Below, piece by piece: positions 35,020-40,161 of a stretch of DNA of 64,000 bases (its first letter is position 1; the number at the start of each line of letters is the position of its first letter). Below the pieces are notes generated by a model, which searched no databases, was not told where the DNA came from, and saw only the letters and a program-made list of their open reading frames with translations. Both the position numbers and the translations under genes were made by a program. This stretch comes from Candidatus Hydrogenedentota bacterium (GTDB lineage Bacteria > Hydrogenedentota > Hydrogenedentia > Hydrogenedentales > SLHB01): assembly GCA_029552745.1 (NCBI GenBank), contig JAKPDK010000182.1:62001-126000 (forward strand), in the 5' to 3' direction.

Positions 35020-35168
35020 CGCTATAGGGTATACAGGGTAGTTTAAAATAATAGAAAGGCGAATTTTTTGATTCTTGTCAACGAAAAAGAAGCCCGTAAG
35101 AAAATTGCTATGTGCAAATCCTGTAACGTTTTGCATCATGTGTTGTATGGTGTGCCAGAGGTTACGAC

Positions 35169-35807
35169 ATGCGCGTGCAGGCCGGGACGGCACTTCAAAA
35201 GCCGAGGCAAGACCGCCGAATGAATCTTTTTGACCTTACAGATGAAGGATTGATGTTGGCGGTCGCTCAAGGAGACCGGTCTGCGCTGGCGGAACTCGTG
35301 CGCCGCTATCAAAACGATATTTTTCGGTTTTGTCTTTATTACATGAAAGACACCGAAGAGGCCAAAGAGCTCGTGCAAGAGACCTTTATTCGCGTGTATG
35401 CGGCACGGCAGCGGTTTGATGGAGCTAGGAAGTTCCGTCCGTGGATACTTTGCATTGCTCGTAATCTGTGCCTAAACGAGTTGAAACGAAAGAAGCCGAT
35501 GGCAGTCGAAGAGATCGAGGACTATGCGGCGGCTTCGTTTCGTAACGCGGTGGCGCCGTTTCCTATGATGAGCGACGGTCCCGATGTACAGTTGATGGCA
35601 TCGGAAAGGCGAAACTTGGTGGCGGCGGCGCTCAAAAATTTGGATGCAGAAGCCCGCGAACTCATTATCATGAGATTTTTTGAGCGGTTGGCAGCGAAAG
35701 ATATAGCCGAGATCACGGGAAGTACCGAAGGTGCTGTGCGGACTCGGTTGCATCGCGTGTTGAAAATGCTTAGGGATACATATAGCGAAGCGAGAGGCGA
35801 TTTTTAG
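35169..35807 (+). CDS. ECF-type RNA polymerase sigma factor (1)
   Basis: 212 residues from the ATG at 35169 (AGAGG ahead); an ATG at 35220, giving MNLFDLTDEGLMLAV, is a good alternative and closer to the usual ECF start. Region 2 is EELVRRYQND-like (AELVRRYQNDIFRFC, AKELVQETFIRVY), region 4 is RELIIMRFFERLAAKDIAEITGSTEGAVRTRLHR, the -35-reading helix-turn-helix. It would direct polymerase to a small regulon when released by its anti-sigma partner, the next gene, which begins three bases after the stop. The peptide cluster behind is a possible target, but no matching promoter pair was identified. Confidence 0.92.
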   Translation: MRVQAGTALQKPRQDRRMNLFDLTDEGLMLAVAQGDRSALAELVRRYQNDIFRFCLYYMKDTEEAKELVQETFIRVYAARQRFDGARKFRPWILCIARNLCLNELKRKKPMAVEEIEDYAAASFRNAVAPFPMMSDGPDVQLMASERRNLVAAALKNLDAEARELIIMRFFERLAAKDIAEITGSTEGAVRTRLHRVLKMLRDTYSEARGDF

Positions 35808-35809
35808 TT

Positions 35810-37624
35810 ATGCGGTATCAAGACGATTATGAAGAGCTGATCGCATACCTCGAGGGTTCCCTCGACGAGGTGGCGGCAGCGCGTCTTGAAAAGCGTCTCG
35901 CGGAATCCGCTGTGCTTCGCGCCGAGTGCGAATGGTTGCGACAGGTTATTGCCGATGCCGACGCTCTACGTACGGGGTCTTATCAAATCGATGTGGTAGG
36001 TTCCGTAATGGAAAAGATCAACGAGGAACCTGTTGGCGTCGACTTTTCTCTTTTGGCAGATTGTTTGGAAGGCGGACGCACGTGCAACGACTCGACGGAC
36101 ATCATGTCGCACTCTAACTGGGATAACGAATCACGTGCGGCGGGTAAGTGGCTGCGAGGTTTTATGATGGCGTGCCAAGAACTCCAGGAGGAGCACGCCA
36201 GACGGACTCCCCGAATTGATTGTGTGGATTCGGTGCTTTCGGTTATCGTTGCGGGCGAGTCCAGCAGCGCACGGAAAGATTTCAAACGCAGGAAGGTAAG
36301 TGTTCGGCGAATCGTTTTGGGGGGATGGTTAGCTGCGGCAGCCGCGACGTTTGTGTTGGCGGGCTCCCTCTTTGTTGCGTTACGTGAGAAACCTTCAGCC
36401 TCCACGGCTGTTTCTCAATCAAGCGTTACCGATATTTCGCAAAAGCGGACTGCCGACCCTAAGGGGGATTTTCCAAAAATCTCCGGAAACCGGTTCAGCG
36501 TTTTGCAAGAAAAGGTTGGGCGGCCGTGGCAAAAGGTCGCTTCTGACGAGAAGATTGTTTTTGAGGCGGTGCCTGCTCCGGTGCTAAAGGGATTAACTCC
36601 CGATACGCTGGTGTCGACCTGGCGCCGAATCGGGACCGATGCTTCGGCTTGGACGCAGATTCGCCAGTGGGCAACCTTGAGCACAGAACAGGCGCACGAC
36701 ATTTTTGCCGCAAAACAACACATCCCGGAGGCAGTGGTCGGCGCATCAGCGGCGCTTTTGCCAGAAGAACGCGAAATAGCGTTATTGACCGCCATCGGCC
36801 ATATGCCTGGCGATCCGGCCGTGAGGTTTGCTTTGGCGAAAGATTATTACGGCAAGCCCCAAGAGACTACGGCGGCAACCGAGACGTTGAATAGTTTGCA
36901 ATCCCTTGATAAGGAGAACGCCCTGCCGTTGTACCTCGAAGCCAGACTTCGGCTCGATTCGGGAGATGTGTCCGGAGCGCTGACGTTATTGGATCGTGCG
37001 CGCGAAATGGAGCGGGCATCGGCCTACGCGCTTCGGACGGCGCAGTTCCGGGAGCAAGCGTTGGTCGCATCGGGGATGTCCGAAGAAATCGCGCGTCTAT
37101 TAACGGCGATGACCGCTGGCATGGATGAATACGATTTCCTTTGCCAACTGGGACATGATTTGTTACAATATGGACGTTATCTTGCTGATAACGGCGACAC
37201 GAGCAGTGCGGAGGCGATTTATCAGTCTGTGCGTCGCTTAGGACAACAGTTGAATAATGGAGCAGACTTTTTGCCGGAACAAATGGCCGCGCTAGATGTG
37301 GAACGACAAGCCGTTGTGATGATGCAGGATTTATATACGGCTTTGGGTTCCGAGGAAGGCGTGGAAGCGTTAGCGAATCAGGCGTTGGATCTGATAGGCC
37401 GTATTGAAGGCATAGAAGGTTTCGCCCGTGGGGTGGAAGAGTTTCTCGCTGCCACCACCGATGTGAATACGTGGCTGCAGTGGGCGGATGCATTATTGGG
37501 TAATGGTATACGGCCGCTACTAGACATGTTTCGGCAAGGACGATTTGATGTGGGGACCTTTATCAGGGGCTTTTCGGCGCCAAAATCGTTGTTGACCGCC
37601 CTGAATCATTTGCAGGGCTTGTAA
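35810..37624 (+). CDS. Large anti-sigma-factor-like membrane protein with duplicated N-terminal module and helical-repeat domain
   Basis: 604 residues. Residues 1-71 have the ELIAYLEGSLDEVAAARLEKRL helix pair of anti-sigma domains but lack the zinc-finger His and Cys. Residues 77-147 look like a second, diverged copy: WLRQVIADADAL..IDVVGSVMEKI (43-70) is echoed by WLRGFMMACQEL..IDCVDSVLSVI (115-146). One membrane helix lies at about 168-190, so residues 195-604 would be outside. That part is helical and TPR-like (LPLYLEARLRLDSGDVSGALTLLDRAREM). Typical anti-sigma proteins are 150-300 residues, so this one is unusually long. The sensor role of the outer part is inference. Confidence 0.7.
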   Translation: MRYQDDYEELIAYLEGSLDEVAAARLEKRLAESAVLRAECEWLRQVIADADALRTGSYQIDVVGSVMEKINEEPVGVDFSLLADCLEGGRTCNDSTDIMSHSNWDNESRAAGKWLRGFMMACQELQEEHARRTPRIDCVDSVLSVIVAGESSSARKDFKRRKVSVRRIVLGGWLAAAAATFVLAGSLFVALREKPSASTAVSQSSVTDISQKRTADPKGDFPKISGNRFSVLQEKVGRPWQKVASDEKIVFEAVPAPVLKGLTPDTLVSTWRRIGTDASAWTQIRQWATLSTEQAHDIFAAKQHIPEAVVGASAALLPEEREIALLTAIGHMPGDPAVRFALAKDYYGKPQETTAATETLNSLQSLDKENALPLYLEARLRLDSGDVSGALTLLDRAREMERASAYALRTAQFREQALVASGMSEEIARLLTAMTAGMDEYDFLCQLGHDLLQYGRYLADNGDTSSAEAIYQSVRRLGQQLNNGADFLPEQMAALDVERQAVVMMQDLYTALGSEEGVEALANQALDLIGRIEGIEGFARGVEEFLAATTDVNTWLQWADALLGNGIRPLLDMFRQGRFDVGTFIRGFSAPKSLLTALNHLQGL

Positions 37625-37662
37625 AATGAAAAGAAAAAGTGTATTGTAGTCAAGTGTTAATG

Positions 37663-37668
37663 TATAAT
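37663..37668 (+). promoter_or_regulatory. Possible -10 box ahead of the small-peptide cluster
   Basis: A perfect TATAAT, 39 bases after the anti-sigma stop and about 105 bases before the first peptide gene. No good -35 is present at the right distance. Confidence 0.3.
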
Positions 37669-37774
37669 CGAGGATATAACTAGGCGTTACAAGTTACCTG
37701 GAAAGGGTAGCTTAGAGCGGATACGGAGAAGAAAGTTTTAGGGAAGACGGAAGGAGAAGGGAGGTGAATGCCTG

Positions 37775-37930
37775 ATGAAACATCTGAAGGTGCTGTCTGA
37801 GAAGAAGCCGATGAAAGCCGAAGAGGTGGCATGGATTCAACTGAAAGACCTGATCGGTTCCGCAGCTGGTTTGTCGGATGAGCAGGTTTATTGGTTGCAG
37901 GCCCAGTGGGATAATTGGCTTCAGAAGTAA
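37775..37930 (+). CDS. Short MKH-type peptide 1 (51 residues)
   Basis: An ATG frame of 51 codons preceded by GGGAGGTGA. It begins MKHLKVLSEKK and ends DEQVYWLQAQWDNWLQK. Four Trp (20, 40, 45, 48), no Cys, no signal peptide or membrane helix. The first eight residues match peptides 2 and 3 at Met1, Lys2, His3 and Ser8, with hydrophobic residues at 4 and 7. Residues 16-51 could form amphipathic helices. It lies behind the ECF/anti-sigma pair. No known family; could be a secreted or modified peptide precursor, a small regulator, or a toxin. Existence as a gene is supported mainly by the start signal and the shared N terminus. Confidence 0.6.
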   Translation: MKHLKVLSEKKPMKAEEVAWIQLKDLIGSAAGLSDEQVYWLQAQWDNWLQK

Positions 37931-37945
37931 GCGGAGGTTGGGTGA

Positions 37946-38089
37946 TTGCTCAACCGAAGTGCGGAAGGAGACATTGGGGCGAACAAGGCTGATTGCGCTG
38001 ACTCCTCCCAACGTTTCCAACCTATGTCCGAAAGGACAATCGTTGAAAAGTTGAAACTGTGGGTCGCGTTTGGCAACAAACGCAAATAA
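37946..38089 (+). CDS. Possible additional small ORF with TTG start (47 residues)
   Basis: GGAGG lies eight bases before a TTG that opens 47 codons, ending VEKLKLWVAFGNKRK. It fills most of the space between peptides 1 and 2. It lacks the MKH N terminus and has one Cys. An alternative reading is a leader or untranslated spacer. Weak evidence. Confidence 0.25.
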   Translation: MLNRSAEGDIGANKADCADSSQRFQPMSERTIVEKLKLWVAFGNKRK

Positions 38090-38119
38090 TGAGGTGTGTT
38101 TCGCGAAAGGATTGAGGAG

Positions 38120-38323
38120 ATGAAACACGTAAGATCAGTCTCGAAAAAGGCCACCCCGTCGAAGGCATTTGTATGGGAGTGGTTTGTTAACACCAAGACG
38201 AGCCCTTGGAGTGCCGGGATAATTCCAAGTAAGCTGAACGCCGCTGGCGATGCTTATTACTCAGATGCTCTGTGGAACTCCTCGGACTCTATCGATCCGA
38301 CGGATCCAGCGGATATTCCGTAA
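38120..38323 (+). CDS. Short MKH-type peptide 2 (67 residues)
   Basis: Begins MKHVRSVSKKATPSK and ends with an acidic, Pro-rich tail (SIDPTDPADIP). Trp at 19, 21, 30 and 52, no Cys. The ATG at 38120 has AAAGG nine bases upstream and GAGGAG directly abutting; a GTG at 38096 in frame is less likely because the MKH signature would then be internal. Separated from peptide 3 by 97 bases holding a GAGTAGC/GCTACTC hairpin. A basic first third and acidic last third give a strong charge gradient. No family recognised. Confidence 0.6.
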   Translation: MKHVRSVSKKATPSKAFVWEWFVNTKTSPWSAGIIPSKLNAAGDAYYSDALWNSSDSIDPTDPADIP

Positions 38324-38333
38324 AAGGCTTGTT

Positions 38334-38374
38334 GAGTAGCGGCTAATGACGGCACAATGTCTTTAGTGCTACTC
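38334..38374 (+). promoter_or_regulatory. Hairpin between peptides 2 and 3
   Basis: GAGTAGC and GCTACTC pair perfectly around a 27-base loop. No T-run follows, so it is more likely an mRNA processing or stability element, or an attenuator, than a terminator. Confidence 0.35.
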
Positions 38375-38420
38375 ACAAACGCAGGTTTAGAGTAACAAAT
38401 TTGACAGGAGGTGACACTCG

Positions 38421-38642
38421 ATGAAGCATATTTCGCGCGTTTCCGGACGGCCTGCAGTAGCAGCAGATGCGGGTCCATTGACGAACTTCAATAAACCAAC
38501 CCCGGGGTTGCTGGGTTGGAACGAGATCGGCGATGTTCCGATTCAGATCGCGACGATCGTGGACAATTTGCCTGTGGCAGGCGCTTTCTGGCGCATTTTG
38601 CCGACGGGCGTCTCCAAATCCGGCGACGGGAACTACGATTAA
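38421..38642 (+). CDS. Short MKH-type peptide 3 (73 residues)
   Basis: Begins MKHISRVSGRPAVAA and ends PTGVSKSGDGNYD. AGGAGG is nine bases before the ATG, one of the best ribosome binding sites of the window. Gly/Pro-rich, Trp at 33 and 57, no Cys. It shares only the first eight positions with peptides 1 and 2; the remaining sequence is unrelated. That pattern, a constant head and variable body, is what one sees in families of exported or modified precursor peptides, but no processing or export gene lies within the cluster. Followed 43 bases later by a terminator. Confidence 0.62.
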   Translation: MKHISRVSGRPAVAADAGPLTNFNKPTPGLLGWNEIGDVPIQIATIVDNLPVAGAFWRILPTGVSKSGDGNYD

Positions 38643-38684
38643 TTTTCTTGTTCCTTCAGCAAGCTAGTTCGCTTCAGTTCGGTT

Positions 38685-38724
38685 GAGCCGTAGTGGAAAA
38701 GAGGCCTCTGCGGCTCTTTTTTAT
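38685..38724 (+). terminator. Intrinsic terminator closing the peptide cluster
   Basis: GAGCCG pairs with CGGCTC, an inner AGAGG/CCTCT hairpin lies in the loop, and six T follow. Placed between peptide 3 and the convergent MshEN protein gene. Confidence 0.7.
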
Positions 38725-38822: not shown

Positions 38823-39983
38823 TTACCCATAGTACTTCTGGATGGCTTGTTCGATCTCGCTGCGTACGGCGACGACTACGGAGACACGTTTCCGTGTGGT
38901 CAACTCAATGTCGTCAATCGCGATTAGATCAAGGGGATTTGACATCGCGACTACGATTTCCTCGTCGGATAATCGGAGCGGCAGCGCCATGTGAAGTTTA
39001 GCAACTTTAGGGGTCAGGGAGCGCAGTGCTGACAGTTCCGGCGTTTCGCTGGAAAGTTGTACGAAGGGTATTCCGAGTTGTGTTGCCAAGACCTGCGCTA
39101 TGACGTTTTCGCCTGTGTATCCTTTTTCGATGAGAATGTCACCGAGTTTTTTGTGTGGGGCTCCGACCTGAGTCATGAGGGCCTCATCCAGTTGTTTTTG
39201 GGAGATAATGCCTGCGCGGCACAGAATGTCACCTAAGCGTAGGCGGCTCCCGTCCGCGGCGACGGCAGCAATATTCAGGGATGGTGCAGCCGATGCGGCG
39301 TGAGCGTCACCCGGCTCGCCTCCTAAAGACTTCCGTAACCGTTCGACTTGTTCGCGGAGTGTGCGCGCATCTTCCCGGGCAATATCGCGTTGCCGCAACG
39401 CCTCAGCTAATTCGCTTCGAAGTATTGTGGTATCTGTCTGCGATTCGAGGGCGAGTCGTGCTTCCTCCAGAGAGGCTTTTGCAGCTGCCAGTTCTCGGCA
39501 CATTTCCTCCCGGTCACGCGTTGCTTCCTGGAGCAATTCCTTCAGTCTACTTATTTCTTCGTCTTTTTCGGAATACGCCGAAGATGATGCGAGCTCTGCG
39601 GCAAGACGATCCCGTTCGAGCCGTAACTCGTCGGCTTCGCGCAATAATCGGGCAAATTCTTGTGCTTGGCGGGTTTGCTGGGCCCGCAGCCGGTCGCATT
39701 CTTGTGCGAGGTTGGTCTTAGCTTGCTGTGCAGATAAAAGTTCGGAGCGGAGATTATCAAGTTCTGCGCGGACTTGTGCGAGCTCTGCGCGAATGTCGGC
39801 ATTTTGTTCTGAAGTCTCTTTGGCAAGGTCTCTCATGGGCGTATCTTGAATGCGTTTCGCCAACGATTCTTTTAGTCCTGTCAACTCCTGTATCAATCGA
39901 TTGTGACCTTCGGCGATTTCTTTTTTCCAGGTTGCGATGGCATTCTCGATACGACTTAATGCGGTTTCGGATTCGCTATTCAT
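38823..39983 (-). CDS. Coiled-coil protein with C-terminal MshEN (GspE N-terminal) domain
   Basis: 386 residues from the ATG at 39983 (GGGGA eight bases ahead). Residues 1-225 are almost continuous coiled coil (heptads rich in Leu, Glu, Arg). Residues 248-386 are an MshEN/T2SSE N-terminal domain with two 24-residue repeats, LRLGDILCRAGIISQKQLDEAL (249-270 area) and KLGDILIEKGYTGENVIAQVL (279-299), the arrangement that binds cyclic di-GMP in MshE. The ATPase that normally follows this domain in GspE/PilB is absent. It may be a free-standing c-di-GMP receptor that polymerises or tethers a partner through the coiled coil. No signal peptide. Confidence 0.8.
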   Translation of the reverse strand: MNSESETALSRIENAIATWKKEIAEGHNRLIQELTGLKESLAKRIQDTPMRDLAKETSEQNADIRAELAQVRAELDNLRSELLSAQQAKTNLAQECDRLRAQQTRQAQEFARLLREADELRLERDRLAAELASSSAYSEKDEEISRLKELLQEATRDREEMCRELAAAKASLEEARLALESQTDTTILRSELAEALRQRDIAREDARTLREQVERLRKSLGGEPGDAHAASAAPSLNIAAVAADGSRLRLGDILCRAGIISQKQLDEALMTQVGAPHKKLGDILIEKGYTGENVIAQVLATQLGIPFVQLSSETPELSALRSLTPKVAKLHMALPLRLSDEEIVVAMSNPLDLIAIDDIELTTRKRVSVVVAVRSEIEQAIQKYYG

Positions 39984-40161
39984 GTCTACTATCCCCATGC
40001 TGACTTGCTGCGTGTATGGGTGCTTGTAAAAAGCGTTCCACCGGGCTCTTCTATTATAGACTAAACAAAGGCCAAGATGAACTATGTTTACAAATGCCCC
40101 TTCGCCCTTTTTTTTGCGCCATAGGGATACCTATTCTCGCCCGTCTTTCAGAATACACCAG

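Follow-up and report, generated by a model that had tools for sequence, protein, structure and literature searches.

Short peptides of Candidatus Hydrogenedentota with a common head as probable precursors handled in trans by a pseudo-radical-SAM/RRE/GNAT locus

Results

Genes and features of the locus

The window, that is, the whole stretch of 64,000 nucleotides analysed here, carries on its forward strand an ECF sigma factor gene, an anti-sigma factor gene and three short open reading frames in a row. The sigma factor (positions 35220 to 35807, 195 amino acids) matches the Pfam families Sigma70_r2 (1.2e-19) and Sigma70_r4_2 (2.3e-11). Its frame is open from 35169, but the homologous start in relatives suggests that translation begins at 35220. 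The following gene (35810 to 37624, same strand) encodes a protein with an N-terminal anti-sigma domain, one transmembrane helix at around residue 173 and a C-terminal TPR-like domain. It matches NF052375 of NCBIfam with 2.7e-6, a score under the cut-off of that model, and TPR_19 with 5e-4; an ortholog is present in 38 of 40 relatives. The Pfam matches to both sigma regions and the anti-sigma-like protein with its single helix confirm the pair that a preliminary description of this DNA had placed upstream of the peptides.

The three frames, also on the forward strand, were found as described at 37775 to 37930 (peptide 1, 51 residues), 38120 to 38323 (peptide 2, 67 residues) and 38421 to 38642 (peptide 3, 73 residues), each with a match to the Shine-Dalgarno sequence. 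The ribosome-binding block AAGGAGAAGGGAGGTGA of peptide 1 (37751 to 37767, forward strand) is near-invariant in 12 genomes. The translations are indeed devoid of cysteine and contain 4, 4 and 2 tryptophans; the bodies had been called Trp-rich, which holds for peptides 1 and 2 but only weakly for peptide 3. All three begin with the head pattern ATGAARCAYNTNNNNNNNNTNWSN (MKH-hyd-x-x-hyd-[ST]). The 64 kb contain exactly three matches to this pattern, those at the starts of the trio; 0.03 matches are expected, and none of 100 shuffles reached three. The peptides show no obvious single modifiable residue, and querying Pfam, NCBIfam and PDB with them returned nothing significant.

The spacer between peptides 1 and 2 (172 to 217 nucleotides) aligns poorly outside two short blocks, GCGGAAGGAG at 37961 to 37970 and CGAAAGG at 38104 to 38110, which are nearly invariant in 12 genomes. 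In alignment A5, the first of them (forward strand) is conserved in most of the 12 sequences while its flanks are not. No conserved open reading frame follows the GCGGAAGGAG block in the spacer of the 12 genomes, and Rfam gave zero matches on the region. The two blocks are possibly an RNA element.

The cluster had been said to be closed by a terminator. A likely intrinsic terminator lies at 38697 to 38722 (forward strand), where the MFE fold forms an AAAAGAG...CUCUUUU stem followed by a run of U. The stem and the U's are present, but the folding is not better than that of shuffles (z -1.2), and the stem at about 38697 to 38722 is not among the sites listed by a terminator scan. Convergent to the peptide cluster, the reverse strand encodes at 38823 to 39998 a coiled-coil protein with a C-terminal MshEN c-di-GMP-binding domain.

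Conservation of the peptides and of their head

Counting the genome of the window, 14 genomes of its family have an ortholog of peptide 1. The family has 12 other genomes in which the anti-sigma gene is directly followed by two to four short frames with the head, showing that frames and heads are conserved in relatives behind the same pair; in a thirteenth relative (G006), peptides 1 and 2 are located on another contig. Orthologs of peptide 2 were recognized by position and sequence, those of peptide 3 by position. The bodies, described as unrelated, are so between the three peptides, but each of them is conserved across species. The core of peptide 1 reads AWIQLKD...W...DNWLQK in the window copy and AWVELKN...DNWLQ across species, the tail of peptide 2 Y...LW...SIDP and ...Y.NALW...SLDPRD, respectively. 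In peptide 3, whose ninth residue is Gly rather than Lys, the motifs PGLLGxNEIGDV and KSG are conserved, with PGLLGxNELGD...KSG as the form across species.

Nonsynonymous changes are much rarer than synonymous ones. Calculated on close pairs only and where dS was defined, dN/dS is 0.07-0.13 for peptide 1 (three pairs), 0.17-0.22 for peptide 2 and 0.27-0.30 for peptide 3 (close pairs in both cases). The three frames are therefore real genes under purifying selection. That they are chance open reading frames with coincidental heads could be supposed from their shortness and from the lack of database family matches; this idea is refuted by the dN/dS and conservation data and by the phylum-specific recurrence of the head, and we regard its probability as negligible. 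In the other families of the order, the sigma/anti-sigma pair is kept and the peptides of the trio are absent.

The eight-residue head noticed at all three starts is in fact longer, with about 15 shared residues (MKH-hyd-x-x-hyd-[ST]-K-x-x-P-A-x-A). An exact search for its strict DNA form among 84,980 species gave 18 contigs, all of Candidatus Hydrogenedentota. A looser form gave 107 matches in 42 of the 68 genomes of the phylum, a handful of which are false (one contains a stop, a few have no ribosome-binding site or lie in long frames), and none with a reversed-pattern control. We collected 152 distinct head peptides of 26 to 73 residues, with ribosome-binding sites, from many loci. His3 and Ser/Thr8 served as selection criteria, and the positions standing out that were not selected are Lys9 (67%), proline at 11-12 and alanine at 14-15. 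Most of the information is held by positions 1 to 9, while the cores vary. Since the codons at the invariant residues vary, the constraint acts on the protein. Cysteine occurs in 39 of the 152 peptides, so that its absence describes the trio and not the family. A constant leader followed by a variable core, as in RiPP precursors, is found in the 152 peptides, together with purifying selection in the families of the trio.

The genome of the window itself contains about a dozen head peptides, counted as pattern matches. Besides the trio there are three in an operon on contig C109, three and a candidate with a GTG start near 128.6-129.4 kb of contig C27, and single ones on C25, at 224.6 kb of C109 and perhaps on C106. 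The row on C27 (L220) begins about 3 kb past the right end of the window; its peptides have 35 to 53 residues, with the GTG-start candidate in addition, and bodies unlike those of the trio.

Promoter motifs

A motif of the ECF autoregulatory type, TGTAACGTTT-N11-TTGTATGGT, lies upstream of the sigma factor gene at 35122 to 35151 (forward strand) and is the sole match in the window on both strands. Across the order, 25 of 39 loci have TGT[AG]A[CT]GTTT-N11-TTGTA or a near variant in front of the ECF gene, where shuffles predict 0.5. In the 4.36 Mb of the genome, the strict motif is found exactly twice, once at the ECF gene and once within the C109 operon, 125 bases 5′ of its second head peptide. 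A position weight matrix of the ECF sites matches 11 of 150 head peptides versus 2 of 341 other genes (p = 7e-5), and a related motif precedes 9 of the 20 first peptides of operons or satellites; these regulon tests were refined after the first hits and the p-values are indicative only. Two relatives (L289 and L292; G019 and G002) also have the motif some 640-670 bases ahead of a branched-chain-aminotransferase-like gene.

The motif marks the operon in the genome of the window and in some relatives, but it was not found directly upstream of the trio. Transcription of the trio by read-through from the ECF promoter is possible. Between the anti-sigma stop codon and peptide 1, most relatives conserve a TTGC[AT]T...CA[CA]AAT block (alignment A6), which corresponds in the window to a promoter-like block at 37640 to 37668 (forward strand) with TATAAT at 37663-37668 and, in this genome, a weak -35. 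The sigma/anti-sigma pair had been proposed as the switch of the peptides; this is supported only in part, in that the ECF motif links the sigma factor with the C109 operon, but the trio is preceded by a different, conserved promoter-like block.

The adjacency of the peptides to the ECF/anti-sigma genes in 13 genomes, with order and bodies conserved, would also be expected if the trio belonged to the signalling system itself, for instance as small modulators of the anti-sigma factor, its likeness to the operon peptides reflecting common ancestry of the head only. The same head is carried, however, by more than 100 peptides away from such a pair, and the pair exists without the peptides in the other families of the order, which makes this explanation quite improbable.

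The processing operon

Downstream of its head peptides, the operon codes for two GNAT proteins, a CPBP (CAAX-type) protease, an ABC ATPase, an ABC-2 permease and a protein of 600-700 residues, in this order. It is shared by at least nine loci, and in most genomes some of the head peptides lie there. The genome of the window has a complete operon with the same order at 170.3-177.7 kb of C109, another contig than that of the trio, in support of the earlier suggestion that the system handling the peptides is encoded elsewhere. Its CPBP protein contains the EExxxR motif, and its two stand-alone GNATs place acyltransferases of this family in the locus. The gene gltD (glutamate synthase small subunit) is often found directly upstream of the operon (L255, L262, L265, L161, L207, L275).

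Of the 68 genomes, 62 encode the large protein, among them all 25 of the family of the window. Every genome with the operon-type peptide (KADAFTDFLNAVWRAW...KKNE) also has the large protein, giving 54 genomes with both, none with the peptide only and 6 with neither (p = 2.7e-5), a co-occurrence due in part to linkage on one contig and to incomplete genomes. In one of the genomes with neither (G027), head peptides with their usual neighbour genes lie where a contig ends, and the assembly may lack the operon. The genome of the window has a single full-length copy of the large protein (175.8-177.7 kb of C109) and head peptides at several loci, which would be distributed precursors.

This protein (640 residues; 600-700 across loci) ends in a C-terminal GNAT. 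A profile built from 30 homologs finds CteB, the maturase of SCIFF ranthipeptides, as a full-length match over residues 4-435 (E 1e-43), followed by GNAT structures. Used by itself, the N-terminal segment of 82 residues hits the RRE region of CteB (E 2e-10), and no other PDB chain was above noise. The RRE of CteB binds residues 1-21 of CteA, the leader lying as a beta-strand (PMC8326336). By sequence homology, the large protein would thus be an RRE-bearing processing enzyme encoded in trans to the trio. The CxxxCxxC motif of radical-SAM enzymes is lost, being absent in all 30 aligned homologs (alignment A4, which leaves out three homologs); the invariant cysteines are four of the SPASM type (C392, C395, C401, C424) and two N-terminal ones (C25, C28). 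The homologs score under the cut-off of TIGR03974, and the GNAT part of the copy in the genome of the window is divergent, with no Pfam match. Because it is a pseudo-radical-SAM protein with a divergent GNAT part, it may be only a scaffold.

The relation to CteB extends to the leader. We used a SCIFF-like sequence composed for the test, which TIGR03973 scores with 78.7 bits, the model starting at KHI. Chimeras with Hydrogenedentota heads in place of the first eight residues gave 71.5-73.3 bits with full-length alignment, as compared to 63.2-65.6 bits with scrambled heads and 61.6 bits without a head. The head therefore fits the leader positions of the SCIFF model. TIGR03973, which describes six cysteines in about 45 residues, matches neither the window peptides nor the operon peptides, ruling out that the trio are SCIFF peptides themselves, and no SCIFF peptide was found in the genome of the window.

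The SCIFF-like leader and the presence of other radical-SAM-like proteins in the genome could mean that a true SCIFF-type radical-SAM maturase, encoded elsewhere, modifies the trio as a variant of the ranthipeptides. Yet no protein passed the SCIFF-maturase cut-off in the 13 genomes searched, the other radical-SAM-like matches in the genome of the window do not cover the N-terminal RRE positions, and the window peptides have no cysteine for a thioether in a genome devoid of SCIFF peptides; we hold such a maturase to be very improbable. A contrasting case is a full-length SCIFF-maturase-like radical SAM protein with the motif CNLACRYC in another genome of the phylum (G003; L320, contig C218; 280 bits), which has no head peptide nearby.

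The content of the operon bears on a further alternative, in which the head is purely an export or sorting signal: the pseudo-SAM/RRE protein would act as a chaperone that hands the peptides to the ABC transporter, the CPBP protease would remove the head, and the body would stay unmodified. The loss of the radical-SAM motif in all 30 aligned proteins and the presence of a transporter and of a CPBP protease with EExxxR agree with it, as do the extremely varied bodies in peptides of 28 to 73 residues, which speak against one defined chemistry. Two dedicated GNATs and a fused GNAT are, however, conserved in the operon and would be needless for pure export, and we judge this reading unlikely.

Discussion

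The trio probably consists of precursors that belong to a family of processed peptides not described so far. We consider it likely that they are SCIFF-like precursors served in trans by the pseudo-radical-SAM/RRE/GNAT locus, in analogy to the prochlorosins. The constant head had been read from the DNA as a recognition sequence of precursor peptides, and this is supported by the 152 peptides, the RRE operon and the fit to the SCIFF leader. The first 15 residues or so (about 1-15 in peptide 1) would be a SCIFF-type leader and the remainder (about 16-51) the core. The leader would be read by the RRE domain of the single-copy C109 protein; because this protein is not adjacent to the trio, we infer service in trans from the shared leader. 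The bound precursors would probably be acylated by the fused GNAT, by the two stand-alone GNATs or by both, after which the CPBP protease would cut them and the ABC transporter export them. In this way, a single processing locus would be responsible for the dozen or so precursors dispersed over the genome. Their expression may be tied at least partly to the ECF factor beside the trio, since the promoter motif of this factor recurs in the processing operon; the occurrence of the ECF/anti-sigma pair without peptides in many relatives counts against the proposed explanation.

The closest working analogy is that of the prochlorosins and synechococsins, in which one promiscuous processing locus acts on many scattered precursors whose leader is constant and whose cores vary (PMC10783134). 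The layout is the same, but ProcM is an unrelated enzyme (LanM), the leader is of the Nif11 type and the chemistry is that of lanthionines. SCIFF ranthipeptides (TIGR03973, with the maturase TIGR03974/CteB) share the M-K-H-I-x-T-L type of leader and a maturase homologous over the RRE, barrel and SPASM regions. In contrast to them, the Hydrogenedentota peptides have no six-cysteine core and are many and scattered, the large protein has no CxxxCxxC and carries a C-terminal GNAT, and the locus adds GNATs, a CPBP protease and an ABC exporter. For the putative acylation, the nearest precedent in chemistry is given by the selidamides, GNAT-acylated RiPPs that likewise have GNAT-family enzymes in their locus; phaeornamide differs by its NHLP-family precursor and lanthionine synthetase, and no pseudo-SAM/SPASM fusion is described there (PMC9505594). 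The selidamide type is defined by a fatty acyl group on a Lys or Orn side chain. Haloarchaeal proteins of NCBIfam TIGR04347 are likewise SPASM-bearing and annotated as pseudo-SAM, but the model matches only one of the 30 homologs of the large protein, weakly, and no link of TIGR04347-type proteins to a leader or a GNAT was found. In the literature searched, which covered few of the subscription journals, we found no described RiPP of Hydrogenedentota, no pseudo-SAM/SPASM RiPP and no paper on small peptides of this phylum.

A more far-reaching proposal is that a radical-SAM maturase without its catalytic cluster motif took on a new role as a scaffold that reads leaders and is fused to an acyltransferase. 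This would define a new RiPP class with a new kind of first enzyme, in which scattered SCIFF-leader precursors give acylated, exported peptides under ECF control throughout the phylum. We put it forward tentatively, as plausible and a little short of probable. If the explanation proposed here holds, the uncultured phylum Hydrogenedentota would possess a peptide pathway of its own that almost all its members share, and would illustrate how a radical-SAM enzyme may give up its chemistry while continuing to bind leaders. The 15-residue head is a ready handle for genome mining, and one RRE protein with about a dozen natural substrates in a genome and dedicated GNATs is a system that can be tested biochemically. 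To our knowledge, it is not settled what SCIFF peptides do in Clostridia, and a SCIFF relative under ECF-type control could help to explain why near-universal RiPPs exist.

Two further groups stand out among the head peptides. One, of 28-36 residues, has a body made nearly entirely of Pro, Ala, Lys and Val (PAPA...PVKPKPVK; L201, L202, L192, L197-L199 and other loci); one of its rows adjoins a sulfatase and another an ECF sigma factor fused to carboxypeptidase-regulatory-like domains. The other has bodies with two cysteines (WQD..C..KGG.xPLLT.L..KC; L159, L177, L187, L194, L200, L223 and, in the genome of the window, G000:C109:224562) and often lies beside large BACON/VWA-domain proteins and LRR proteins.
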